This document shows, in pieces, positions 11,317 to 26,180 of a stretch of 64,000 nucleotides of DNA; the first letter of the stretch is position 1, and every line of letters begins with the position of its first letter. Location: positions 2,418,001 through 2,482,000 of the forward strand of contig NZ_OMOR01000001.1 in the NCBI RefSeq assembly GCF_900302465.1. Direction: 5' to 3'. The position numbers and the translations under genes were made by a program. This DNA is from Ascidiaceihabitans donghaensis. Its GTDB lineage: Bacteria > Pseudomonadota > Alphaproteobacteria > Rhodobacterales > Rhodobacteraceae. The notes beneath the pieces are model-generated. The model was not told the origin of the DNA. It did no database searches and saw nothing but the letters and a program-made list of their open reading frames with translations.

Positions 11317-11847
11317 TCATTTCTTGGCACCCGCGCTTTCGGGGTAATGTAACTTGCATCCACAAAACGCATCAAAGCGATCTTTGTGACGTTGATTTTT
11401 GTTCAGGTCATTTGCATCAGCCGTGGTTTTGAACCCGTTCGCAGCAGCGAACTGAACAAGACCGGCCACAGAACCGATACCCGACACATCCAGTGCACCT
11501 TTTGGCGGCAAATGCGCTGAAATCGGCAGTGTTTCTCCACAACTTGTCTGTTCGTCTTGCGGTGGGCTCTTGGCCCAGACAATTGCAGATGTGGCAGAGG
11601 TGCAGTCCACAACAGCCATTCCACTTGCGAAAAAAAAGCTAAGCTCTTGCGACACAAGTCCGTTGCCTTGATCGACAGCGTCTTTCCCGGCGCCCATGTC
11701 ATTTGCACCGGCGTAGTAAAAGGAACAGGTGTCAGAATGTTTAACCCGCTTGTTCCAGTCCGGCTGTGCAATAGAGCACGCCAAAGCAGGCACAGCCCCT
11801 ACCAAGGCCGCCAAACCGCAGGATATGAAAGACAAGCGCACGGTCAT
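11317..11847 (-). CDS. Secreted cysteine-containing protein of unknown function within the nuo operon
   Basis: I do not recognise the family. The 176-aa product has a signal peptide (basic MTVR, hydrophobic core to about residue 23, ALA before Cys24), so a periplasmic location is likely. The mature part has six cysteines, including FCGC near the C-terminus, which could form disulfides or bind metal. It contains no membrane helix after the signal. The gene sits 8 bp after nuoJ and 13 bp before nuoK on the same strand and must be transcribed with them. Rhodobacter nuo loci are known to carry such unassigned ORFs. Confidence 0.75.
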
Positions 11848-11855
11848 GGTTTTGC

Positions 11856-12458
11856 TTACAACCCCTGCCCCGGTTTGATGTCTTTCAGTTCCATCGCCTT
11901 CGCCGGGTCGCGCATCATCTGTGCCACCACATCCTGACGTTTAACATCCGTCCGGTGGCGCAGGGTCAAGACAATTGCACCGATCATCGCAACCAGCAGG
12001 ATCAGCCCGGACAGTTGGAACAAAAGGAAATATTGATCATACAAGATCAGGCCGAGGGCTTCGGTGTTGTGGCGGTCAACCGGAGTAACCTGTGCGCGCA
12101 ACCCTTCCGCGGCCGCGTTGCTTTCCCAAGCCCCGAATGCGATCACGAATTGCATCAAAATTACCAAGGCAATCAACAAGGCCAGCGGCATGTATTTCGC
12201 CATTTCGGCCTTTAGTTCTGCAAAATCGATGTCCAACATCATGACCACGAACAAGAACAGAACCGCAACCGCGCCTACATAAACAATGATCAGCAACATG
12301 GCGACAAATTCAGCACCAAGAAGGACAAACAGTCCTGCCGAGCTGAGGAATGCCAAAATAAGCCACAACACGGAATGGACGGGGTTGCGGCTTACAACTG
12401 TAAAGAAGCCCCCCGCAACAACCGAAATCGCAAAAAGGTAAAAGGCGAAGACGCTCAT
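11856..12458 (-). CDS. nuoJ: NADH-quinone oxidoreductase subunit J
   Basis: Membrane subunit of complex I with five helices, 200 aa, the usual length for alphaproteobacteria. It starts [10 protein letters not shown] and shows the conserved [10 protein letters not shown] and the third helix with [18 protein letters not shown] that contains the pi-bulge region. The start codon overlaps the end of the upstream AhpD-like gene by 4 nt (ATGA), so the two are probably translationally coupled. Confidence 0.95.
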
Positions 12459-12871
12459 GATTTGTCATCCTTTGTGTCGGACTTGGTTTCGGCGGTGACC
12501 TCTTGGGCCAATTGCAACGCTTTGGTTACAGCAGGCATTCCGGCAAAAGCCGTCATCATTCCAATGGTTTCACTGATGTGTTGGTCGGTGGCGCCTGCCT
12601 CTTTGGCGTGGCGCATGGTCTGGCGAATGGCAACGGCATTGTCGGCGCCCTGAATGGTTAAGCCTGCAAGGGTCAGCAACAGTTTTGTACGTGCGTCCAA
12701 TGCGCCTTCGTTCAATGCGTTGCCGAACATGCTTTCCATCATGTCCTTGGGCATAGTGCCCATCATCTTTTCAAAACCTTCGGGCGTGAAGGCGTCCATG
12801 GCCGGCATGTCCTTGGCCATTTTCTGCATCTGCGCCATCATGTCGGCGAACGGATTTTTGGGGTCGGTCAT
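12455..12871 (-). CDS. Carboxymuconolactone decarboxylase (AhpD-like) family protein without CxxC
   Basis: A 138-aa soluble protein whose second half (about 60-125) matches the AhpD/CMD fold: [13 protein letters not shown] followed by a helix with [28 protein letters not shown]. The family includes decarboxylases and AhpD-type disulfide reductases, but the CxxC pair needed for AhpD activity is absent; the whole protein has no cysteine. The first 50 residues are Met/Lys/Asp rich and low in complexity. It overlaps both neighbours by 4 nt (DUF4259 gene upstream, nuoJ downstream). The role in or near complex I is unknown. Confidence 0.78.
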
Positions 12872-13284
12872 GTCAGTCCCCGCAACCTAATCTCAAGGCC
12901 TTCGATTTCCGCGTCCCATGCGCTTTGATCACCTTCGGCCCAAAGCTCTTGCAGTTCGGAGTTGTCGGCATTCACCCGGGCAAGCGCTTGCAGAGCCAAT
13001 GGAATCAAATCGCGATCCTGCGTGACGTCGTCGATATGCTCCAGAAGCGTCTCGGAATTGTCAGTGCCCATTTCGGGATGTGCAGCGCCAAAACACACAG
13101 CGACGATTTCGGCTGCGACTCGGGCAGGAATGCCTTCGTCATAGTCCAAGGTGTCACCAGCCGTGGTTTCGACAGCCGCCGTTAACGCCCCGCGCACAGC
13201 CTCAACGCCACCAGACGTGTAGTCATCCTCGATCCAATCGAGGCTGGTGTCGTCTTCAAATATGCTTACGCCCCAAGCGCCCAT
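12868..13284 (-). CDS. DUF4259 domain protein
   Basis: A 138-aa acidic cytoplasmic protein beginning MGAWGVSIFEDDTSLDW, the signature start of DUF4259 proteins. It is helical, with no signal or membrane segment. The gene is 17 bp downstream of nuoI and its stop overlaps the next gene by 4 nt. The function of the family is not known; elsewhere such proteins are found singly, so the position in a complex I operon is notable. No catalytic motif is visible. Confidence 0.78.
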   Translation of the reverse strand: MGAWGVSIFEDDTSLDWIEDDYTSGGVEAVRGALTAAVETTAGDTLDYDEGIPARVAAEIVAVCFGAAHPEMGTDNSETLLEHIDDVTQDRDLIPLALQALARVNADNSELQELWAEGDQSAWDAEIEGLEIRLRGLT

Positions 13285-13301
13285 GGTGTTAGCCCTAGCC
13301 T

Positions 13302-13796
13302 TCAGCGATACGGCGCGTCGAGTTCGAGATTACGCGCAATCTCGGCCTCCCAACGGTCGCCATTGGACAGCAATTTGTCCTTGTCATAATACAGTTCTTC
13401 GCGTGTTTCCGTGGAAAACTCGAAGTTCGGCCCTTCGACAATCGCATCCACAGGACAGGCTTCTTGGCAAAAGCCGCAATAGATACACTTTGTCATGTCA
13501 ATGTCGTACCGCGTTGAGCGGCGGCTGCCGTCATCGCGTGGTTCAGCGTCGATCGTGATGGCTTGTGCCGGGCAAACTGCTTCGCACAGCTTGCAGGCGA
13601 TGCAACGTTCTTCACCATTGGGATAGCGACGCAGCGCATGTTCGCCCCGAAAACGCGGGCTTAACGGGCCTTTTTCATGTGGGTAATTCAACGTCACCTT
13701 GGGGCGAAAGAAGTGCTTCATACCCAGTTTGAAACCCAGCCAATAATCCTGCAGCAAGAAGTACTTGGCGGCACGTGTGTAATCAATCTGTGTCAT
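13302..13796 (-). CDS. nuoI: NADH-quinone oxidoreductase subunit I
   Basis: Ferredoxin-like subunit carrying clusters N6a and N6b that relay electrons to NuoB. From the start at 13796 ([10 protein letters not shown]) it is 164 aa. The two 4Fe-4S motifs are intact: Cys65, 68, 71, 75 ([12 protein letters not shown]) and Cys104, 107, 110, 114 ([12 protein letters not shown]). The start lies 2 bp after the nuoH stop, which favours it over the frame's extension 7 codons upstream, which would overlap nuoH. Confidence 0.96.
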
Positions 13797-13798
13797 GA

Positions 13799-14839
13799 TC
13801 AGCCTCCTACGGCCCAACGGGCATAGACACCCCAGAACCAGTCAAATTTGGCAGCAAAGGCCACGAAAACAACCCACGCGAGAGAGAACGGCAAGAAGAC
13901 CTTCCAACCCAATCGCATCAATTGGTCATAGCGGTAGCGCGGTGTGATGGCTTTCACCATCGAGAAGAAGAAGAACACCAAGCCGATTTTGGCAACCATC
14001 CAGAAAATGCCATCAGGCAAGCCCGGGATGGGCGACAACCATCCACCAAGGAACATCAGCGAAATCAACGCACACATCAAAACAACGGCCACCAATTCAC
14101 CGATCATGAACAACAAGAACGGTGTTGATGAATATTCGACCTGATAGCCTGCAACCAATTCGGATTCAGCCTCGGGCAAGTCAAATGGTGGACGATTGGT
14201 TTCGGCCAAGGCGCTGATAAAGAACAAGATCAGCATCGGGAAATGCGGCAGCCAGAACCAGCCCAGTAAACCCGCACCAGTGTCTTGCGCAGCAACAATT
14301 TCGCCGAAGTTCAAAGAACCTGCGCTAATGACGACACCGATGATGATCAGGCCGATTGAAACCTCGTATGAAATCATCTGCGCCGCAGATCGCAAAGATC
14401 CAAGGAACGGATATTTGGAGTTGGACGCCCAGCCCCCCATGATCACCCCGTAAACTTCAAGTGAAGACACGGCGAATACGTATAAAATAGCCACGTTGAT
14501 CGAGGACAACACCCAGCCGTCGTTGAACGGGATCACAGCCCAGGCAATCAGCGACATCACAAGCGTGACCATCGGCGCCATAAAGAAAACCGCTTTGTCT
14601 GCGCCCGCTGGCACAACGATCTCCTTGACGATGTATTTGCCAAAGTCTGCGAAGCTTTGCAGCAAGCCAAATACGCCAACCACGTTGGGTCCGCGGCGCA
14701 TCATAACTGCGGCCCAGATTTTACGGTCCGCATACATCAAGAAGGCCAAGGCCAGCAAAAGCGGGACGACAACAAGCAAAATTTGTCCAACAATCGTCAG
14801 CAAAATGCCCAATGTGGTGTTCATAAAGAAGTCAGCCAT
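13799..14839 (-). CDS. nuoH: NADH-quinone oxidoreductase subunit H
   Basis: Membrane subunit forming much of the quinone channel, 346 aa with eight expected helices. Seen are [14 protein letters not shown], the E-rich loop [19 protein letters not shown] that couples quinone reduction to pumping, and the terminal helices. It follows a small lipoprotein gene after 6 bp and is followed by nuoI after 2 bp. Confidence 0.96.
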
Positions 14840-14845
14840 AGGTCC

Positions 14846-15226
14846 TCACACCGTCGGTATTCCCTTTTCCACACAAGCGGCAGTCACGACTTCAGCGTCG
14901 ATCGTGCGCAACCCGCGCGGCAAGGATGGCGAAATGGTGTAAACAGCATCTGCACGCCACACGCCACCCTCCTCATTTACATTTGTGCGCACATGGCGCG
15001 CGAAACCCCAGCCACGGATCAGTGTATACTGGGCGGCTGCACATTCGGCATAGTTATCAACGTCTTTGGACGACAGGGCATTCGTCATCGCCACTTTAAA
15101 TTGTACAAGATCATCATCCAAAAGCGCCGTTTCCACCCCGAGGTAATCCGGAATGAACTGTTCCGCCGTGGGAACAGGGTCGCAGGCCGTCAAGGTCGCT
15201 ATTGGTATGATCGCCAAAAGCTTCAT
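14846..15226 (-). CDS. Small predicted lipoprotein between nuoG and nuoH
   Basis: 126 aa beginning [15 protein letters not shown], a short signal peptide with lipobox LTAC, so Cys15 should be lipidated. The rest is soluble, with three further cysteines including two that could pair (CAAAQ and the C-terminal AACVEKG). I know no function. Its start overlaps the nuoG stop by 4 nt, so it is coupled to nuoG translation although NuoG is cytoplasmic and this protein is exported. Confidence 0.75.
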
Positions 15227-17238
15227 TCTGCGGCAATCGCCTCTGTCTGGCGGGCCTTTGCCCCTGCACTTAGTTCAGCCATCAGCTGGCTGGCACGCGC
15301 AATCGGGTTTGTCAGATAGAAATCTGTAACGGCTGCGCGGAAGTCCGCCTTGCCCAAATCGCCCGCGGCCTCGGCGACCCAGCTGTTTTCAGGAACAACA
15401 TCTATGTCCCCCAGATGCGGCACGTCTTTGACCAAAGCAGCGCGCAGTTGGGCCACGCTGTCGAAGGGAAGTGTTGCATTCAGTTCAGCGCTAAGTGCAC
15501 GCAAAATGGCCCAGTTTTCCTTGGCTTCACCGGGCGCAAACCCCGCACGCTGCGCCAATTGAGGACGTCCTTCGGTGTTCACGAAAATCCCGGGTTCTTC
15601 TGTATAGGCAGCACCCGGCAAGATGATGTCGGCACGATGTGCACCGCGGTCGCCATGGCTGCCTTGATAGATTACAAATGGGCCGTCAGCAACGTCCACT
15701 TCATCCGCACCAAGGTTGTAGATCACCTCGGCTTGCGACACGCCGTCCATGCCAGCGTCGTTTGTCGCCCCCACGTCCATGGCACCTACGCGGGATGCAG
15801 CGGTGTGCAGCACCATCAATTTGGACTGTGCCGCTTCGGCCATAGACATCACAGTGCCCAAGACAGCAGCCCCGTCAGCTTCATTCAAAGCGCCCTGCCC
15901 CACAATAGTGATGCCTTTGACGCCTTGTTTGTCAGAATGGTCCATCGCAGCCAATTTGGACAATGCCGCGCGGTCCGTTCCGATGTGCTCCACATCATAG
16001 GTCAAATCCGCTGCTTCGCCAATCATTGCGACTTTTGCACCACGCAGCCACGCTTTGCGGATACGTGCATTCAATACAGGCGCTTCAAGACGCGGGTTTG
16101 TGCCAACCAGCAAAATCATTTCGGCGTCGTCGATGTCTTCGATGGTGGCTTGCCCCGCATAGCCCGCGCGGTTGCCCGCAGGCAGCTTGGCGCCATCGGT
16201 GCGGCATTCAACAACACCGCCCTGCCCTTCGATCAATGCCTTCAAAGCGTAGGTGGCTTCGACCGACGCAAGATCGCCCACCAGACCGGCAAGCTTTTTA
16301 CCTTTCATCGCTGCTGCAGCGGCAGACAAGGCTTCGGGCCAGGTCGCTTTGCGCAACTTGCCGTTTTCGCGAATGTAAGGCGTGTCCAAGCGCTGGCGGC
16401 GCAAGCCGTCCCAGACAAAACGGGTCTTGTCGGAAATCCATTCTTCGTTCACGCCATCATGGTTCAACGGCAAGAAACGCATGACTTCGCGACCTTTTGT
16501 GTCAACGCGGATGTTGGATCCAAGCGCATCCATTACGTCGATGCTTTCGGTCTTTGTCAGTTCCCAAGGACGCGCCGTGAAGGCATAGGGTTTCGAGACG
16601 AGTGCGCCGACAGGGCACAAATCAATGATGTTGCCTTGCAAGTTGCTGTCGAGGGTTTCGCCCAGATAGGAGGTGATTTCAGCATCTTCGCCACGGCCTG
16701 TTTGCCCCATTTGGGCAATGCCTGCCACTTCGGTGGTGAAGCGCACACAGCGGGTGCATGAAATGCAGCGCGTCATATGGGTTTCGACCAACGGGCCAAG
16801 ATCCAGATCATCCGTCGCACGTTTGGCTTCGCGGAACCGGCTGAAATCGACGCCGTACGCCATGGCCTGATCCTGCAGATCACATTCGCCGCCCTGATCG
16901 CAAATCGGGCAATCCAGCGGGTGGTTGATCAGCAAAAATTCCATCACGCCTTCGCGGGCTTTTTTGACCATCGGCGAATTGGTTTTGACTTGTGGGGCCT
17001 GACCTTCGGGACCGGGGCGCAAATCGCGCACCTGCATGGCGCATGAGGCTGCGGGTTTTGGCGGCCCCCCGACAACTTCGACCAGGCACATGCGGCAGTT
17101 GCCGGCAATCGTCAGACGTTCGTGGTAACAAAACCGCGGGATTTCCACGCCTGCTTGCTCACAGGCTTGGATCAGGGTCATTGCCCCATCCACTTCGATC
17201 TCGGTGCCGTCGATGTTAACTTTGCGAAGGTCGCTCAT
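15223..17238 (-). CDS. nuoG: NADH-quinone oxidoreductase subunit G
   Basis: 75-kDa-type Fe-S subunit of the peripheral arm, 671 aa. Cluster ligands can be read: 2Fe-2S N1b Cys37, 48, 51, 66; N5 His106, Cys110, 113, 119; N4 Cys158, 161, 164, 208. The C-terminal half is the molybdopterin-oxidoreductase-like domain that has lost its cofactor. The extra N7 cysteine motif of E. coli NuoG (CxxCxxxC after N4) is not seen, as expected for the mitochondrial-type alphaproteobacterial subunit. It starts 3 bp after a DUF5333 gene. Confidence 0.96.
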
Positions 17239-17241
17239 GCG

Positions 17242-17643
17242 TCAATTCACCCTGAGTAACGAACCAATAAGGCTCGATTTTTCGATTTCGGCGCGGCCAA
17301 GCGCGCAATATGTTTCTGGTTGATCCGGAACCACACCATTGGCGGCCAGATATGCCTTGCCTTCTTTCCTGAGACGCGCCTTCTCAGTCGGGGATTTGCG
17401 ATACGCGTCGATCTCTGCGTCCGAATACCCCATGTCACGGGCCTTATCGCGCAAACCGTTCACAAACCTCAAGGCCTTCAAGTACCTTGGAGAGATTTCT
17501 GAGCAGGTTTTTCGTATTTCATCCGCCAAACCCACAGCCAGTAACGCATCGTCAATGGCATCAACGTCGCGCAGGTTCGGTTTTGCGACCGCAGCTCCGG
17601 CCATAACGCAAACAATGGCGGTGATTTGCACAAGTTTATTCAT
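17242..17643 (-). CDS. DUF5333 family secreted protein (copy 2)
   Basis: Start placed at 17643 (MNKLVQITAI, 133 aa) because a strong AAAGGGA lies about 8 nt upstream; the longer frame has no such site. A signal peptide ends near residue 21 (AGAAVA). The C-terminus YCALGRAEIEKSSLIGSLL is clearly like that of the gene at 18105 ([19 protein letters not shown]), so the two are paralogues. Each has a cysteine near the middle and one in the C-terminal motif that could form a disulfide. The function is unknown; the product should be periplasmic. Confidence 0.78.
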   Translation of the reverse strand: MNKLVQITAIVCVMAGAAVAKPNLRDVDAIDDALLAVGLADEIRKTCSEISPRYLKALRFVNGLRDKARDMGYSDAEIDAYRKSPTEKARLRKEGKAYLAANGVVPDQPETYCALGRAEIEKSSLIGSLLRVN

Positions 17644-17700
17644 CACATATCCCTTTCGCGGACAGTGGCTGCGCAAAATGCGTCAACCTGCCCACAGACA

Positions 17701-17741
17701 TGGGAAAGAGACATGCTGTTATGCAATAACAGGCAGTCCCA
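17701..17741. other. Stable hairpin in the gap upstream of the second DUF5333 gene
   Basis: In the 132-bp gap there is a perfect inverted repeat CTGTTAT-gca-ATAACAG (17716-17732), with an outer TGGGA / TCCCA pairing. It has no T-run on the coding (-) strand, so it is not a plain terminator. This is the widest gap inside the nuo unit, which makes an RNA processing/stability element or a second promoter possible. Confidence 0.5.
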
Positions 17742-17775
17742 AGCAGCAAAAATGCTCCGTATGTGAAACTCAGTG

Positions 17776-18108
17776 TCACTCTACGCAGGCTCCGCGCAAA
17801 ACAAGTTTGTCACCTTCAATACGAAGCTGTTCGTTCGGGCTGTCCGGGCCGATGACCCATGTTTTGTTGGATGTTCCGAACTGTTCGATGCAATACCGTG
17901 TGGCCTCATAGCGGCCGGCTTCTTTGGCGCCATCCAAAGAAGACGACACAGGGCCGATTGTTACAGTGAACTGGTCGCGCTGTTTGTCGACCTTAGAAAG
18001 TTTGGCACGAAAGAATTGGCCATCAAATGCAATCGCATCTTCTTTCTTGTTGCAGGCTGCCAAAGTTGCGGCGACTGCAAGTATGCCCAAGGAATACTTG
18101 ACCATCAT
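17776..18108 (-). CDS. Small predicted lipoprotein between two DUF5333 genes
   Basis: 110 aa with a lipoprotein signal: [18 protein letters not shown], Cys20 or Cys19 after lipobox LAAC depending on which of two adjacent ATGs is used (18108 or 18105). The mature part is small and soluble with two further cysteines (YCIEQF and the C-terminal GACVE). The start overlaps the preceding DUF5333 stop (ATGATG containing TGA). I do not recognise the family. Location between nuoF and nuoG suggests co-expression with complex I; a direct role is not shown. Confidence 0.72.
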   Translation of the reverse strand: MMVKYSLGILAVAATLAACNKKEDAIAFDGQFFRAKLSKVDKQRDQFTVTIGPVSSSLDGAKEAGRYEATRYCIEQFGTSNKTWVIGPDSPNEQLRIEGDKLVLRGACVE

Positions 18109-18509
18109 CCCGACACCTCAATCAAATAGCTACCCATAACAGTCCCCTCTTGGATTTCAGCCCGGCCCGCCGCGCACACCGCATCAGCGGATGGATTCTG
18201 CAGACCGTATTTCGTAACAAACGCGTCCTGACGTGACGCCAGTGCATCGGTTGCATCTTCCATGCCGGTTTGTTCTGCAGTCATGGTAAATCCGTCTTCC
18301 TCAAGCCGCGCGATCACGTCGCCCGTGGCCTGTGCCACCCGTGGTAAATTTACACTTAGCGTCGGACAGGCAAGCGCGAGTTGCTGTGCGGTGGTCGTAT
18401 CGATCAGAGCGTCCAAATAGTACTCAGGCGCAGGGCGTTCCGACGCAGAAACCGCACCGGTCACCACGCCAAACGCCACCACAGCACATATGAACGATGT
18501 GCCGTTCAC
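18105..18509 (-). CDS. DUF5333 family secreted protein (copy 1)
   Basis: 134 aa with a signal peptide ([22 protein letters not shown]) and a C-terminal motif [19 protein letters not shown] shared with the gene at 17242. Start overlaps the nuoF stop by 4 nt (ATGA). Similar length, motif and location show a tandem pair separated by one lipoprotein gene. The family is seen mainly in Rhodobacterales and has no known activity. Confidence 0.78.
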
Positions 18510-19801
18510 TCTGCGGCCACCGCGCTGACGCGCCCCGTGCGTTTGTGTTTGATGCGGTCTTCAATTTCGTCACGGAAGTGCCGGATCAGCCCCTGAATGG
18601 GCCATGCGGCCGCATCACCCAAAGCACAAATTGTGTGGCCTTCGACCTGTTTGGTCACATCAAGCAACATGTCGATTTCTTCTGGCTCTGCCTCGCCTGT
18701 AACCAGACGGTCCATCACACGCATCATCCAGCCGGTGCCTTCACGGCACGGCGTGCACTGGCCGCAGCTTTCGTGTTTGTAGAATTTGGACAAGCGCCAG
18801 ATTGCTTTGATCACATCCGTGGAATTGTCCATGACGATGACAGCTGCAGTGCCAAGACCGGACCGTTGCTCGCGCAAATAGTCGAAGTCCATGATGGCGT
18901 CGCGCATGTCTTTGCCCGGGATCATCGGCACCGAAGATCCGCCCGGGATCACAGCCTTCAAATTGTCCCAACCGCCGCGAATGCCACCACAATGGGTTTC
19001 GATCAGCTCTTCGAAACCAATCGACATGGCCTCTTCGACGACACAAGGATTGTTGACGTGACCGGAAATAGCAAACAGCTTTGTGCCTGCATTGTTGGCC
19101 CGACCGAAGCCTGAAAACCATTCTGCCCCGCGGCGCAGAATGGTTGGCACAACGGCAATCGATTCCACGTTGTTCACGGTTGTCGGGCAGCCATAAAGAC
19201 CTGCGCCAGCCGGAAATGGCGGCTTCATGCGTGGCATGCCTTTTTTACCTTCAAGGCTTTCCAACAGCGATGTTTCTTCGCCGCAAATGTAGGCCCCTGC
19301 ACCGTGGTGCAAGTACAGGTCAAAATCCCAGCCGGATTTCGCGGCGTTCTTGCCCAAAAGACCAGCATCATAGGCTTCATCAATGGCCGCTTGCAGGGCC
19401 TCTTTTTCGCGGATGTATTCACCACGAATGTAGATGTAGCAGGCGTTTGCATTCATGGCGAAGGACGCAATCAAGCAGCCTTCGATCAACGTGTGCGGAT
19501 CATGGCGCATGATCTCGCGGTCTTTGCAGGTGCCCGGTTCGGATTCGTCTGCATTCACAACCAGATAAGACGGGCGACCGTCGCTTTCCTTAGGCATGAA
19601 GGACCATTTCAACCCAGTCGGGAAGCCTGCACCACCCCGCCCACGCAGACCGGATTTCTTCATCTCGTCGACGATCCAGTCGCGGCCCTTTTTGATCATG
19701 GCCGCTGTGCCATCCCAGTGGCCACGCGCTTTGGCGCCTGCCAATGTACGATCATGCATGCCGTACAAGTTGGTAAAGATGCGGTCCTGGTCCTTCAGCA
19801 T
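18506..19801 (-). CDS. nuoF: NADH-quinone oxidoreductase subunit F
   Basis: NADH- and FMN-binding subunit, 431 aa. The glycine-rich NADH/FMN loop [10 protein letters not shown] is at 54-63 and the second glycine-rich segment [18 protein letters not shown] at 165-182. Cluster N3 ligands are Cys346, 349, 352 (ESCGQCTPC) and Cys392. It starts 4 bp after the DUF5337 gene and its stop overlaps the DUF5333 start. Confidence 0.96.
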
Positions 19802-19805
19802 AACG

Positions 19806-20024
19806 CTAACCCTTGTCTGTCTGGCGCTGTCGCCAGATTTTAAAAACGATCCAAAGTGCTGCGCCGAAACCGGCGAGCGTGGCTAAGTCCATCAAGGCAC
19901 GGGTCCGGTTGGACCAGCCGAAATAGGAACCTGCCAAATTCGCGCAAAGCCAAAATATGCCCAATCCGGCAATTACCAGCGCAACACGCTGTCCTGCTTT
20001 TGTGGTTGTGTCTTGGCTTTGCAC
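19806..20024 (-). CDS. DUF5337 small membrane protein
   Basis: 72 aa with two hydrophobic helices (about 13-33 and 43-62) separated by a short loop with SNRTRAL, and a basic C-terminus [11 protein letters not shown], so both ends are probably cytoplasmic. It matches the DUF5337 proteins found at this position in Rhodobacterales nuo operons. It lies 15 bp after the HHH-domain gene and 4 bp before nuoF. It might be an accessory or assembly factor; that is inference from location. Confidence 0.75.
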
Positions 20025-20039
20025 AGTTTTGTTTAGCGT

Positions 20040-21101
20040 TTAGTAAACGCCACCTTTCTTAACCTTGTTCGAGAAGTCGGTCGTCCCGCCTTTTGCCAAA
20101 ACTTTGGCTTGTTTGGTCCACTCGTCCCGCTCGATGCGGCCTTTGAACTTTAAGCGGCTGTCGACCCATTCGATTTCTTTTTTGCGCCAACCGGCGACTT
20201 GATCGAAGTGGTAAAAGCCAAGTTCGTTTAATGTCTTTTCAAGGCCCGGCCCCACACCTTTGATCTGTTTGAGATCATCGGCCGCGCCGCCTCGTGCGGC
20301 GGTCAGGGTTTCAGGCTTGCCGTCCGCTGCAACCGGCGCACGTTTGGCCGCCGCAGGTTTTGCAGCGCTTGCAGGTTTTGCAGCTGCCGATTTCTTGGCC
20401 GGCGCTTTGTCCGCGGTGGCTTTTGCAGTGGTTGCCTTTTTGGCAGGCGCTTTTTTGGCAGGTGCTTGTTTTTTCGCAGCAGCCTTTGTCTCAGCGGCCT
20501 TTGTCTCAGCCGGTTTTGCATCTGCCTTTTTCGCCGCCGGCTTTTTCGCAGCCGCTTTCTTGGCCGGAGCTTTGGCCTTGGGCGCGTCTTCCACCGGCTT
20601 TTCGTATTTGTAAGTGCCCTTGCGTTCTGCAAGTTCCTTTGTGCCTTTCAGCTCTGCAGACGGTTTTATTACTGCGGCTGTGCTGGCGGTTGCTGCCGCT
20701 GCAACCGCAGCAGGCGCCGTATTAGCGACAGACGTGTCTGATGCTGTTTCGGTGTCAGACGTAGCTGCATCTGCGGCAGGTGCTGCGGCTACAGGCGATG
20801 TAGCAGCGCTTTGCGATGCGGTGGTTGGGGCAGATGCTACAGTGTTCGCAGCATTTTGTGCCTGAGCGCGGGCCAAAGGCGTTTCGGCTTCGGACTGTGC
20901 ACCCGGTGCGGGGAGCGGTTTGCACATCACCAAACTAAGAAGCAAACCCGCAACAATGAATATGACAGCACCGATGAAGGCTGCCTGCATAAAGGTCCAT
21001 CCGCCGATAAACATCAGCAAAATCAATGCCAGCAAGCCGCCCAAAGCAGCAACCAACCAACACCCTAAGGCGCAGCCCATACTTCCTTGATTGTTATCCA
21101 T
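20040..21101 (-). CDS. Membrane-anchored protein with Ala/Lys/Pro-rich linker and NuoE-type C-terminal helix-hairpin-helix domain
   Basis: 353 aa in three parts. Residues 13-60 are two membrane helices. Residues 75-255 are low complexity: first Ala/Thr/Ser rich, then histone-H1-like KKAAAKKPAAKKA repeats from about 173. Residues 275-337 form a compact domain with an HHH-like core DDLKQIKGVGPGLE, nearly the same as the C-terminal domain of NuoE next door ([14 protein letters not shown]; both go on with LGFxHxDQ, a W, and WVD). It therefore seems to be a partial copy of the NuoE tail placed on a membrane anchor. Not a known complex I subunit; DNA or protein binding cannot be told apart by eye. 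Confidence 0.75.
   Translation of the reverse strand: MDNNQGSMGCALGCWLVAALGGLLALILLMFIGGWTFMQAAFIGAVIFIVAGLLLSLVMCKPLPAPGAQSEAETPLARAQAQNAANTVASAPTTASQSAATSPVAAAPAADAATSDTETASDTSVANTAPAAVAAAATASTAAVIKPSAELKGTKELAERKGTYKYEKPVEDAPKAKAPAKKAAAKKPAAKKADAKPAETKAAETKAAAKKQAPAKKAPAKKATTAKATADKAPAKKSAAAKPASAAKPAAAKRAPVAADGKPETLTAARGGAADDLKQIKGVGPGLEKTLNELGFYHFDQVAGWRKKEIEWVDSRLKFKGRIERDEWTKQAKVLAKGGTTDFSNKVKKGGVY
20337..20585 (-). repeat. Low-complexity Ala/Lys/Pro coding repeat
   Basis: Imperfect GCC/AAG/CCG-type codon repeats encoding KKA/KKP/AKP units in the HHH-domain gene (protein residues about 173-255). The units vary, so it is a degenerate rather than a perfect tandem repeat, but slippage between strains would be expected. 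Confidence 0.6.
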
Positions 21102-22370: not shown

Positions 22371-23582
22371 TTATCGGTCGATTTCCCCGAATACGACATC
22401 CATGGTACCAATAATTGCAGCAACATCAGCCAGTTGGTGCCCTTTGCTGATGTGATCCATAGCCTGCAAATGCAGGAACCCGGGTGCGCGGATTTTGCAG
22501 CGGTACGGCTTGTTCGAGCCATCAGCCACAAGATAGACGCCAAATTCACCTTTCGGCGCCTCAACGGCCACGTAAACCTCGCCTTCGGGCACATGGAACC
22601 CTTCTGTGTAAAGCTTGAAGTGGTGGATCAGGCTTTCCATGGAGGTTTTCATGTCTGAACGCGACGGTGGCGTTATCTTGCCCCGTGCCAGAACATCACC
22701 TGTGGCTTCGCGCAATTTGCCAATAGCCTGTTTGATGATCGACACGGATTGACGCATCTCTTCCATGCGGCACAGGTAACGGTCATAGCAGTCGCCGTTT
22801 TTTCCAACCGGGATTTGGAAATCAAATTCATCGTAGCATTCGTAGGGCTGCGCACGGCGCAAATCCCATGCCATCCCAGAGCCGCGTACCATCACACCGG
22901 AAAACCCGTAGTTCAGGATGTCTTCCTCAGTAACAACGCCAATATCGCAGTTGCGCTGTTTGAAGATACGGTTTTCGGTCAGTAGCCCGTCAATATCGTT
23001 TAGCATATTGGGGAATTCATGCGCCCATTGTTCGATGTCATCGAGCAAATCATCAGGCAAATCCTGATGCACACCACCGGGACGGAAGTAGGCTGCGTGC
23101 AAACGTGCACCGCAGGCACGTTCGTAGAAAATCATCAGCTTTTCGCGCTCTTCAAAGCCCCACAGCGGCGGCGTCAAAGCCCCCACATCCAAAGCCTGTG
23201 TCGTCACGTTCAGCAAGTGGTTCAAAACACGACCAATTTCGCAGTACAATACACGGATCAGCGACGCGCGACGCGGCACTTCAACGCCAGTCAACTTCTC
23301 GATCGCCAAACACCATGCGTGTTCCTGGTTCATCGGCGCCACGTAATCGAGGCGGTCGAAATAGGGCAGGTTTTGCAGATAGGTGCGCGATTCCATCAGC
23401 TTTTCAGTGCCACGGTGCAACAAACCGATGTGCGGATCGCACCGTTCCACTACTTCGCCGTCCAACTCAAGCACCAAGCGCAAAACACCGTGTGCCGCCG
23501 GGTGTTGAGGCCCGAAGTTGATGTTGAAATTCCGGATTTTTTGTTCGCCCGTCAAGGCGTCGTCAAATTTCGAGCCGTCCAT
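22371..23582 (-). CDS. nuoD: NADH-quinone oxidoreductase subunit D
   Basis: 49-kDa-type subunit forming the quinone pocket with NuoB, 403 aa from the start at 23582 ([10 protein letters not shown]). The frame extends 11 codons into the preceding gene, but at 23582 the start overlaps the sulfotransferase stop as TGATG, and an AAGGGA lies about 11 nt upstream. Motif GPQHPAAHG at 24-32 carries the quinone-site histidines. The C-terminus DVVFGEIDR is the family end. Note that the gene upstream is a sulfotransferase and not nuoC. Confidence 0.96.
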
Positions 23583-24475
23583 CACTGCACTGGTCCCTTC
23601 ATATTGTCCTGCCAACGCGGGGGAACCGCATCGAACCTGGACATGACAAAATCATATTGAGGCTGCATGGCATCCGCCAAGAGCGTGTGTGTGTTTGCAT
23701 CCATCGCCTGCCCCGCCCCGGCGTTCGCAGGTTCTGACGGACCCGTCAAAACATCGTCGAAGCCCAGAAACTCGGACAAATCTTCCAAAGTGTCTTTTTC
23801 AAACAACTGTTCAAAAAACAATACTTTTAACTTGGATTTCGGAACAGCTTTGGTCAGCCGCGCCAAGGTCGATGCATAGTCAGACCGCGCCATTTCCGCA
23901 GAGTTCGATCCATCCGTGATACCACGCAACAATTCGTTTTGCACGTCGTCCAATGGACGCCCGCGTTTCGCCCGTCGTTGCGCCGTCATCGAAAGGTTAG
24001 ACCACAGGCGGTCTACCGGATCACGTAATATCATCACAAAGCGTGTTTTTCCGCCATTCAAAGCGGCCATACGCTTGTATGTTTTTTCAGACAACAACGC
24101 ATAAGCCGGCGTGATGTCGGCGCATACTCGCGTTTCATCGTTCGCGCGGCGATGCATCAGGGCTTCGTACCGCTTGTCGTTTTCAACCTTCGCACCGACC
24201 AAACCCATCCAACGGTCCATTTCCTTGACACGAAATGTCAGCCGATCGCGGATTTTTCGGGTCTTGGCTTGCGCCAAATCAACACGCACCCCTTGGCGCA
24301 CACCGATCAACTGGTCCATGGACCAAAGTGCGCTGTCGTGTTCAAGGCTGTCGAAATAATGCGTTTCCTTGAACGGGGGCATTGCCGCTTGCGGATGCGC
24401 ACGCAGGGCTTGCGCCAGCCACGTGGTGCCCGCCTTCGCGGCCCCTATCCCGAAAAGAAACATCGGAGCCGCCAT
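23582..24475 (-). CDS. Sulfotransferase family protein (copy next to nuoD)
   Basis: 297-aa PAPS-dependent sulfotransferase by motif: 5'-phosphosulfate loop GAAKAGTTW at 11-19 and 3'-phosphate motif [10 protein letters not shown] at 151-160, both in the expected places. Start at 24475 chosen because it overlaps the stop of the small membrane gene (TAATG) and puts the PAPS loop at the N-terminus; the upstream 29 codons of the frame have no likeness. The likely substrate is a sugar or lipid hydroxyl/amine, but this is family knowledge only. Strong similarity to the gene at 24648 marks a paralogue. The sequence has no signal peptide. Ends in TGATG with nuoD. Confidence 0.85.
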
Positions 24476-24648
24476 TAACGCTTCTCCAGCTCTTGTTGCT
24501 TCATCGCGATAACCCACAACAACACGACTGTGCCGATGGGCAACAAGCAGGCAAAGGCCCACAGTTTATTGATGCCAAAAAATGGCAGCAATTTCAGCAT
24601 TGGAATGATTGTAGCGGCCGCGACGGCCAACCAAAACAAGGTATCCAT
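24475..24648 (-). CDS. 57-aa two-helix membrane protein between two sulfotransferase genes
   Basis: Start at 24648 gives MDTLFWLAVAAATII and 57 aa; two hydrophobic helices (about 3-24 and 30-50) end in a charged tail MKQQELEKR. The start overlaps the preceding sulfotransferase stop (TGATG) and the stop overlaps the next sulfotransferase start (TAATG), good evidence that it is translated. I do not recognise the family. It could anchor one or both soluble sulfotransferases to the inner membrane; inference only. Confidence 0.68.
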   Translation of the reverse strand: MDTLFWLAVAAATIIPMLKLLPFFGINKLWAFACLLPIGTVVLLWVIAMKQQELEKR

Positions 24649-25529
24649 CAGGCGTAGACCTCCATGCTTTGCGTCCATTTGGCGGGCAATTGTTCAAAAA
24701 TGTCACGCACATACGTATATTGCGGCTTAAGCCACAGAAACATCTGGCGCCCCAATTCTTGCGGCAAATCGATTTTTATGCCCTCATTTACATTCGTCTC
24801 GACCGGGGCTTCGAAGTCATCAATCCCAAGAAACTTGCAAATCCGCGACGCACCGCCGTCAAACAGGGTTTCAAAGAAATCAACATGCACATCTTGCGCA
24901 GGCAAAGTCGCTTTCAAATTGTCCAGCGTCATTCGGTAGTCCGAACGCCAGGCGACCCCTTTGATCCCACCGGCTTGTATTTTGGCAAAATCGGCTAATG
25001 TGTGCGCCAGCATGTCTTCGGATGTCTGCGCCCGCTTTTTCGCCCGCATACGTAGGTTCGACCACAGCCGTGAAACCGGATCGCGCATCAGGAAGATCAG
25101 CTTTGTGTTTGCTGCAACGCTGTGCATTTCACGCAAACTGTCAGCGCTTAGCATTGCATAGGCTGGTGTTACTTCACCAACAACCGACGCCCCATCACTG
25201 CCCCACAACAAATATTCAAGATATGCGTCTTTATCGATGGCTTCGTGTGTCATCAAATCGGACCACTTCTCAAACCGTTCCAGCGCAGCCTCATAAGACA
25301 TCGGGGCCACGATTTCAGCCGTGCGGTCGGGATCGCCAAAGATCGCAGCCCGACGGGTTTTTACAGTATCCGCCATAAACGCCTGACGCTTCATTTCAAC
25401 ACAGTCGAAATAATGCAGTTCTTTGATGGACGACATCGCACATTGTGGATGGTGTTTCAAAAAATAGTGCAGCCATGACGTGCCACCTTTTTGCGCACCA
25501 ATACCTATGACAACCGTTTTGTCTGTCAT
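24648..25529 (-). CDS. Sulfotransferase family protein (copy next to nuoC)
   Basis: 293 aa, PAPS-dependent sulfotransferase by motif: GAQKGGTSW at 11-19 and RDPVSRLWSN at 149-158. It shares spacing and many residues with the copy at 23582 (both have [18 protein letters not shown], a PDRLWSN-like motif and FLGxDD near the C-terminus), so the two arose by duplication. It starts 51 bp after nuoC; the Shine-Dalgarno GAGGT lies in a small GTACC/GGTAC hairpin. The acceptor is unknown; cytoplasmic. Confidence 0.85.
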   Translation of the reverse strand: MTDKTVVIGIGAQKGGTSWLHYFLKHHPQCAMSSIKELHYFDCVEMKRQAFMADTVKTRRAAIFGDPDRTAEIVAPMSYEAALERFEKWSDLMTHEAIDKDAYLEYLLWGSDGASVVGEVTPAYAMLSADSLREMHSVAANTKLIFLMRDPVSRLWSNLRMRAKKRAQTSEDMLAHTLADFAKIQAGGIKGVAWRSDYRMTLDNLKATLPAQDVHVDFFETLFDGGASRICKFLGIDDFEAPVETNVNEGIKIDLPQELGRQMFLWLKPQYTYVRDIFEQLPAKWTQSMEVYA

Positions 25530-25532
25530 AGT

Positions 25533-25548
25533 GTACCTCGGGGGGTAC
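25533..25548 (-). promoter_or_regulatory. Hairpin overlapping the Shine-Dalgarno of the first sulfotransferase
   Basis: On the coding strand GTACC-cccgag-GGTAC-type pairing (5-bp arms, 6-nt loop on the genomic strand at 25533-25537 and 25544-25548) lies directly upstream of the ATG at 25529 and includes part of the GAGGT ribosome site. It may lower or regulate translation of the sulfotransferase relative to nuoC. Confidence 0.4.
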
Positions 25549-25580
25549 TCAGTGTGAAAAGATGCGCGCCAACCATGCTG

Positions 25581-26180
25581 TTAGTCCGTCTTCTCGTCGC
25601 CGGGCAGGATGTATTCCGCGCCTTCCCATGGGCTCATGAAGTCGAATTGGCGGTATTCCTGAACAAGGCTGACAGGTTCATAAACCACGCGCTTTTCAAC
25701 TTCGTCGTAGCGCACTTCGGTATACCCCGTGGTTGGGAAATCCTTGCGCAGCGGATAGCCCCGAAAGCCGTAGTCGGTCAGGATGCGACGCAAATCCGGG
25801 TGGCCGGAAAAGAGAATGCCAAACATGTCGAAGATTTCGCGCTCGAACCAATTGGCCGAAGGGTGCACATCACACAGCGACGGCACCATCTGGTCTTCGC
25901 GGATCGACACACGCAAACGGATGCGGTGGTTCTGATACATCGACAAAAAGTGATAAACGACATCAAACCGCTTTGCGCGGCCTGTGTAGTCTACGGCCGT
26001 GATATCAACCAAAGTCGAAAACTTGCAGGTGGCATCGGTTTTCAGAAAGTCCACAAGGCCCGCGATGTTGGTTGGGGCCACATCGACATTCAGCTCATCG
26101 CGGCTGATGTCCCACGACAAGACACAATCTGCCCGCTTGGCTTCGATATACGCGCCGAGTTCTTTTAATGCTTCAGACAT
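25581..26180 (-). CDS. nuoC: NADH-quinone oxidoreductase subunit C
   Basis: 30-kDa-type subunit, 199 aa, not fused to NuoD. The family signature is visible as [14 protein letters not shown] near residues 140-153, preceded by [10 protein letters not shown]. The length is that of alphaproteobacterial NuoC. It lies 11 bp after nuoB; downstream the operon is interrupted by the sulfotransferase block before nuoD, where nuoC and nuoD usually adjoin. Confidence 0.96.

Follow-up and report, generated by a model that had tools for sequence, protein, structure and literature searches.

Results

Two sulfotransferase genes and a small gene lie between nuoC and nuoD

We analysed a 64,000-nucleotide (nt) stretch of the genome of Ascidiaceihabitans donghaensis (contig NZ_OMOR01000001.1, positions 2,418,001 to 2,482,000; hereafter the window), which carries a nuo operon for respiratory complex I on its minus strand, with three genes placed between nuoC and nuoD. 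In gene order these are nuoC (30 kDa subunit, 25581..26180; PF00329, 158.4 bits), a 51-nt spacer (25530..25580), the sulfotransferase gene ST1 (293 aa, 24648..25529), a gene here called m (24475..24648), whose 57-aa product has two stretches that look hydrophobic by eye, a second sulfotransferase gene, ST2 (297 aa, 23582..24475), and nuoD (49 kDa subunit, 22371..23582, with its ATG at 23582; PF00346, 402.6 bits), all on the minus strand. Both sulfotransferases are of the type that uses 3'-phosphoadenosine-5'-phosphosulfate (PAPS). A preliminary description of this DNA had reported the two sulfotransferase genes and the tiny protein between nuoC and nuoD, and their coordinates, strand and frames are all confirmed. 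It had also described 1-nt stop/start overlaps at every junction down to nuoD; these are exact (a gap of -1) at ST1/m (TGATG), m/ST2 (TAATG) and ST2/nuoD (TGATG), but nuoC and ST1 are 51 nt apart, and the run of overlaps starts at ST1.

A GA-rich stretch lies upstream of all four ATGs and ends 7-12 nt before them: GAGG in the spacer (25539-25536, 7-10 nt before the ST1 ATG and ending 7 nt from it), GGAGG within ST1 (24663-24659, ending 11 nt before the m ATG), GGAG within m (24487-24484, ending 9 nt before the ST2 ATG) and AAGGGA within ST2 (23599-23594, ending 12 nt before the nuoD ATG). We read these as putative Shine-Dalgarno sites. A promoter-like match at 25558-25530 ends directly at the ST1 start codon. 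No convincing local promoter for nuoD was seen in a scan of 5 kb on both strands, which gave 4 promoter-like sites compared with 3.4 (standard deviation 1.6) in shuffled sequences, a negative that leaves a nuoD promoter possible. A second genome of the same genus (G011) has ST1, m and ST2 in the same order, with identities of 58%, 72% and 68% to those of the window, compared with 87% for NuoC and 97.5% for NuoD. The reading of the block as a series of conserved, overlapping genes that leads into nuoD is borne out. We infer that the block is co-transcribed with the nuo genes and that its translation is coupled into that of nuoD.

Relatives differ in what lies between nuoC and nuoD

That nuoC and nuoD usually adjoin had been assumed. 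We compared the interval among the best 80 of 588 NuoD matches, a set in which near relatives are over-represented, and counted 79 of these loci (L112, without nuoC, was left out). Only 27 of the 79 have nothing between the two genes, and the assumption does not hold. The m gene occupies the interval in 33, in 31 of them without a sulfotransferase and in two with one; a sulfotransferase without m is found in nine, and the remaining ten contain something else. The block of the window is thus not peculiar to this genome, nor is it a fixed feature throughout Rhodobacterales, and the interval is a patchwork: the nuoC-nuoD junction is a variable, exchangeable gene slot in the nuo operons of this order.

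Other contents of the slot include open reading frames (ORFs) that are GFA-like (L097), Lumazine_bd_2-like (L061, L097 and L110) and FlK-thioesterase-like (L113), and Ruegeria loci have an ORF of 40-44 aa there. Six genomes that we took for Paracoccus, with NuoD 84-94% identical to chain D of 8qby (presumably a Paracoccus denitrificans entry), have no sulfotransferase in the slot; five show gaps of at most 34 nt there, and the sixth an ORF that looks FlK-like by eye. By eye, the slot ORF of locus L197 (genome G445, taken for Paracoccus) resembles the FlK-thioesterase-like ORF of L113. Two m-like proteins lie side by side in the slot at L114:4628-4998, and also at L049 and L211. One record, L042, is titled Nocardioides marinus, an actinomycete, while its NuoC and NuoD together group with Leisingera, and it is mislabelled or contaminated.

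The junctions vary along with the contents. Of the 27 loci with an empty slot, 26 have a 1-nt overlap of nuoC with nuoD, as TGATG or TAATG. A 1-nt overlap of the nuoC stop with an ATG is seen in 22 of 31 loci with m and in none of 11 with a sulfotransferase. For the last gene before nuoD we counted 126 sulfotransferase or m loci, from which repeats were removed by a hand-made list and among which near-copies may remain: in 33 (24 sulfotransferases and 9 m) the last gene shares 1 nt with nuoD, in 46 the distance to nuoD is 0-20 nt and in another 46 more than 20 nt, and one shows a 4-nt overlap. With only these 33 showing the 1-nt overlap, the junctions seen in the window are a variant rather than the rule.

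Distribution of slot sulfotransferases among relatives

A first contig scan with ST1 as query gave no relative, and a second scan used NuoD. Among 394 genomes of the family, 81 match the ST1 query at E <= 1e-40, 79 of them outside the genus; in all 53 of these 79 that were inspected, the 28 best included, a sulfotransferase lies between nuoC and nuoD. A profile of 37 of the 48 extracted sulfotransferase frames, all from the slot, favours slot sulfotransferases and under-counts others; at E <= 1e-50 it matches 48 of 148 genomes of the order, of which 41 have a sulfotransferase in the slot, three have one immediately preceding nuoA, on the other strand, and four have one only elsewhere. All 34 matches below 1e-90 are in the slot, as are seven weaker ones. 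No sulfotransferase of this profile is in the slot in 107 of the 148 genomes, and the 30 sulfotransferase-less ones that were searched for nuoD all have it. Three of 385 genomes in a class-wide sample match, two from the same family and one other genome, with no nuo gene in its 3-kb locus. A phage origin of the block was considered and rejected, with no megablast match among 50,697 phage records.

Within the genus, the ST1 query (E <= 1e-30) finds sulfotransferases in two of 12 genomes, and in two of the four that are at least 90% complete, while the m profile (E <= 0.001) finds m in eight of 12 and in all four near-complete ones; five genus genomes are 53-79% complete, and some absences may be gaps. 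The insertion had been called settled, which suits m and does not suit the sulfotransferases. In the order sample, m and slot sulfotransferases occur together in three genomes against 11 expected (Fisher p 0.0007), from which we draw no conclusion, the genomes being related and the 40 m matches being counted irrespective of position.

Sulfotransferase genes are found at three places around nuo. An uncultured Tateyamaria (L036:1258-3316) has two between nuoB and nuoC, and also m and a sulfotransferase before nuoD; four loci have one before nuoA (L145, L148, L151 and L178), with another in the slot at L145; and the slots of L140 and L033 contain two each. These three positions are the best argument for an explanation in which the sulfotransferases sulfate some part of the respiratory chain or of the membrane around it, be it m, a subunit of complex I, a lipid or a quinone, and co-expression with nuo is functional. 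There is a precedent in the mycobacterial sulfotransferase that sulfates menaquinone. However, most order genomes lack a slot sulfotransferase of the profile, nuoD was present in every sulfotransferase-less genome searched for it, ten of the 12 genus genomes gave no sulfotransferase, and unrelated cargo occupies the same slot, and we hold this explanation to be unlikely. A specific form of it, in which nuo-linked sulfotransferases were recruited to several operon positions and modify such a respiratory membrane part, seems to us slightly more doubtful again, and we know of no sulfation step of this kind for bacterial complex I.

ST1 and ST2 have the motifs and predicted fold of sulfotransferases

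Both proteins pass the Pfam cut-offs for Sulfotransfer_3 (PF13469, cut-off 27 bits; ST1 51.7, ST2 41.2) and Sulfotransfer_1 (PF00685, cut-off 22 bits; ST1 30.5, ST2 31.6), and they are 30% identical over 290 columns. ST1 contains GAQKGGT, KELHYFD and RDPVSRLWS, and the motifs of the PAPS superfamily are present in both (GAQKGGT/GAAKAGT and RDPVxRLWS); in PAPS-dependent sulfotransferases these are named for their roles as the 5'-phosphosulfate loop and the 3'-phosphate Arg/Ser motif. In the alignment of 37 slot sulfotransferases, which includes ST1 and ST2, residues G11, A12, G16, K36, E37, R149, S157 and others are invariant, and conservation is at least 90% for K14, T17 and H39.

Searched against PDB, the 37-row profile matches 3rnl, an Alicyclobacillus sulfotransferase (E 3e-19), and the heparan-sulfate 3-O-sulfotransferases (3-OSTs; E 1e-10). 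K14, T17, E37, R149 and S157 align with residues of the 3-OST chains, whereas K36 has no counterpart. The slot stretch E-L-H-Y-F-D aligns with E-P-H-F-F-D and E-V-H-F-F-D of 3-OSTs, such that E37 falls on the Glu of the E-x-H-[FY]-F-D motif in 1t8t and 1zrh, which is catalytic in 3-OSTs. The Lys of the 3-OST KTP stretch is also important, and we do not class ST1 and ST2 as 3-OSTs because this lysine is missing: the profile has itPaY in place of KTPAY (1zrh) and KTPSY (1t8t).

Structure prediction, which the preliminary description had proposed, gave confident models for both enzymes (ST2, mean predicted local distance difference score (pLDDT) 90.3 and predicted TM-score 0.88; ST1, pLDDT 89.3). 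In Foldseek searches 3rnl ranks first for both (ST2 E 4e-9, ST1 E 4e-8), and the match to 3-OST-3 has an E of about 1e-6. After 3rnl, ST2 matches the heparan-sulfate N-sulfotransferase NDST1 and 3-OSTs, and ST1 matches the polyketide-type sulfotransferase domain of an olefin synthase (second rank), 3-OST-3 and a curacin domain. The sulfotransferases have in common with 3-OSTs, the N-sulfotransferase domain of NDST and 3rnl a predicted fold, a GxxKxGT PAPS loop, the E-x-H-[FY]-F-D motif and an R...S stretch, and differ from them in being only 12-21% identical (matches with E <= 0.001), in being bacterial and in having no KTP lysine as in 3-OSTs; the 3rnl entry is a sulfotransferase with no acceptor named. 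ST1 and ST2 are most likely catalytically active PAPS-dependent enzymes, and most likely cytosolic.

The conserved active-site columns also bear on the idea that the sulfotransferases descend from enzymes but serve complex I without catalysis, as accessory subunits or as assembly factors. The precedent is CI-PIMT of P. denitrificans, which its authors describe as a methyltransferase-like subunit bound to complex I and conclude to be inactive, with catalytic and cofactor residues changed (PMC11522691). The slot sulfotransferases are similar in that an enzyme-fold protein is tied to an alphaproteobacterial complex I, and they sit inside the operon. CI-PIMT is bound and inactive in that account, whereas the slot sulfotransferases, whose tie is one of operon position, have active-site residues that are invariant or at least 90% conserved among 37 sequences, and 107 of 148 order genomes do without them in the slot. 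A dead-enzyme subunit was accordingly dropped as the leading idea, and we consider an accessory role of this kind distinctly improbable.

The small protein m has no Pfam or NCBIfam match. It is probably membrane-bound, with two putative membrane helices judged by eye, and P16, P22, G25 and W45 are invariant in an alignment of 29 rows. Its profile gave one match in PDB, a lectin (E 0.0024), which we took for chance. The ratio of nonsynonymous to synonymous substitution rates (omega) of m is 0 to 0.25 in seven pairs, all of them from relatives.

ST1 and ST2 have separate origins

All trees were quick trees, and a 120-row tree of NuoC plus NuoD was weighted towards loci picked because they have a sulfotransferase. 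On this tree the presence of sulfotransferases needs 14 changes, that of m 13 and emptiness 12, and the labels for sulfotransferase, m and empty slots cluster beyond all shuffles, whereas those for sulfotransferase with m and for other contents do not. This clustering together with the many changes suggests that sulfotransferases and m are passed on for some time, with frequent loss or regain. Distances between sulfotransferases correlate with those between NuoD proteins at 0.263, compared with 0.294 for NuoC and NuoD (n=85; none of 300 permutations as high in either case), and nearest neighbours agree in 21 of 85 and 26 of 85 cases, respectively. The closeness of the two correlations suggests that the sulfotransferases are old residents.

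In a 114-row sulfotransferase tree, ST2 falls within the main slot clade (83 rows, support 93) and ST1 lies outside it on a long branch. In a tree of 43 rows chosen by hand from this set, ST2 groups with the slot sulfotransferase of the Tateyamaria locus L036 (support 100), and both belong to a slot clade of 23 rows (support 81); ST1 is again outside the slot clades, weakly placed. The two had been called paralogous, and a tandem duplication around m in this lineage would account for a shared family, a shared operon and 30% identity. Membership of one family stands; a recent pair does not, as ST2 and not ST1 joins the Tateyamaria gene, a clade of ST1 and ST2 from the window genome and G011 is rejected in the 43-row set (approximately unbiased test, p-AU 0.003), and the 114-row tree agrees. 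Such a duplication is extremely improbable. By these trees ST1 and ST2 are of separate origins, ST2 as a member of the main slot clade and ST1 as a separate recruit. The lineages to which m and ST2 belong occupy the slot in many other genera as well.

Slot sulfotransferases of relatives are under purifying selection. Omega is 0.03-0.21 in 11 close pairs, none of them with the sulfotransferases of the window, for which synonymous sites are near saturation against G011; for nuoC in the same pairs, with frames that ran stop to stop and included some upstream bases, it is 0 to 0.17 and below the sulfotransferase value in nine of 11. The difference from nuoC is one of several points that would suit an incidental insertion, tolerated for keeping the reading overlaps, with sulfotransferases of no lasting use. 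Their presence is patchy, with the 14 changes on the NuoC plus NuoD tree, and they diverge much faster than their neighbours (mean distance 1.23, compared with 0.27 for NuoC and 0.14 for NuoD). However, omega is still low in all 11 pairs, the active-site columns are invariant or nearly so, and slot sulfotransferases are found in many genera of the family, and we regard an incidental insertion as very unlikely.

PAPS supply and a candidate acceptor

The genome of A. donghaensis has a gene for adenosine-5'-phosphosulfate (APS) kinase, a source of PAPS, and a PAPS supply is likely. As a discriminating test APS kinase was discarded, being present in 147 of 148 order genomes. Five plasmid records contain relatives, and three were inspected. 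Sulfotransferases on pSD118 (Sulfitobacter guttiformis) and pDOK1-4-7 (Tateyamaria omphalii) match the slot profile and have glycosyltransferase and sugar-nucleotide or polysaccharide genes around them, with no nuo genes in the stretches seen. In the polysaccharide locus of pSD118, a 905-codon frame annotated as an alpha/beta hydrolase fold (L154:5011-7725) holds a sulfotransferase domain. Because of these two plasmid relatives, and because glycan sulfotransferases are prominent in the fold matches, we favour a sugar-type acceptor for ST1 and ST2, perhaps, as a guess. The predicted fold fits a glycan acceptor, without being proof of one.

Discussion

We propose, with somewhat better than even confidence, that the nuoC-nuoD junction is an old exchangeable site in which active PAPS-type sulfotransferases are carried as cargo on the expression of complex I. 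Small genes would be gained and lost there, some of them bordered by 1-nt overlaps through which their translation would run on into nuoD. In the window, m would be the usual resident of the genus, ST2 a member of the main clade of the slot and ST1 a second, separate recruit. The two enzymes most likely sulfate an acceptor, perhaps of sugar type, from PAPS in the cytosol, and the arrangement would be explicable without a direct role in complex I, though they may have one.

Several observations weigh against this proposal. Sulfotransferases at three places around nuo are more than plain cargo predicts. Their distances correlate weakly with those of NuoC (0.130; six of 300 permutations as high), and the branches of the sulfotransferase trees are long, with many weak forks. 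The Foldseek TM-scores to 3rnl are moderate (0.59-0.61), and tyrosylprotein sulfotransferases are among the matches at E < 0.001; with these and the polyketide-type enzymes among the matches, the predicted fold does not fix the acceptor. The sulfotransferases of pSD118 and pDOK1-4-7 are only 32-35% identical to ST1, and the third plasmid relative adjoins fatty-acid genes. No polysaccharide genes were seen around the two other sulfotransferases of the A. donghaensis genome (L003 and L004) among the 6 of 12 and 7 of 10 longer ORFs scanned.

The preliminary description had tied sulfation to complex I expression. What is seen of such a tie is co-location, and the same operon has at least nine further extra ORFs (window 11317-21101). 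Between nuoE and nuoF these are a 353-aa ORF, HHH-type by eye, and a DUF5337 gene; between nuoF and nuoG, two DUF5333 genes and a 110-aa ORF that is lipoprotein-like by eye; between nuoG and nuoH, a 126-aa ORF; between nuoI and nuoJ, DUF4259 and CMD genes; and after nuoJ, a 176-aa ORF. Here nuoA, B, F, G, I and K-N were named by position, size or similarity to our own labels. Extra ORFs at other junctions (DUF5337, two DUF5333, DUF4259 and CMD) fit the view of the slot genes as cargo. The nuo clusters of Paracoccus and Rhodobacter contain extra reading frames known as URFs, likewise non-core genes between nuo genes; the six genomes taken for Paracoccus have no sulfotransferase in the slot. In the open-access literature we found no paper on a sulfotransferase in a nuo cluster or on an association with nuoC-nuoD, and three complex I papers (PMC8115037, PMC8762328 and PMC11522691) do not use the word sulfotransferase in their main text.

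The slot between two core genes of complex I has been used repeatedly by sulfotransferases. That several unrelated gene families share this one slot is a warning against assigning function from operon position alone. The slot sulfotransferases are a defined group of enzymes that some strains carry and close relatives naturally lack, and they offer a route to what these bacteria sulfate and to any respiratory link that there may be.

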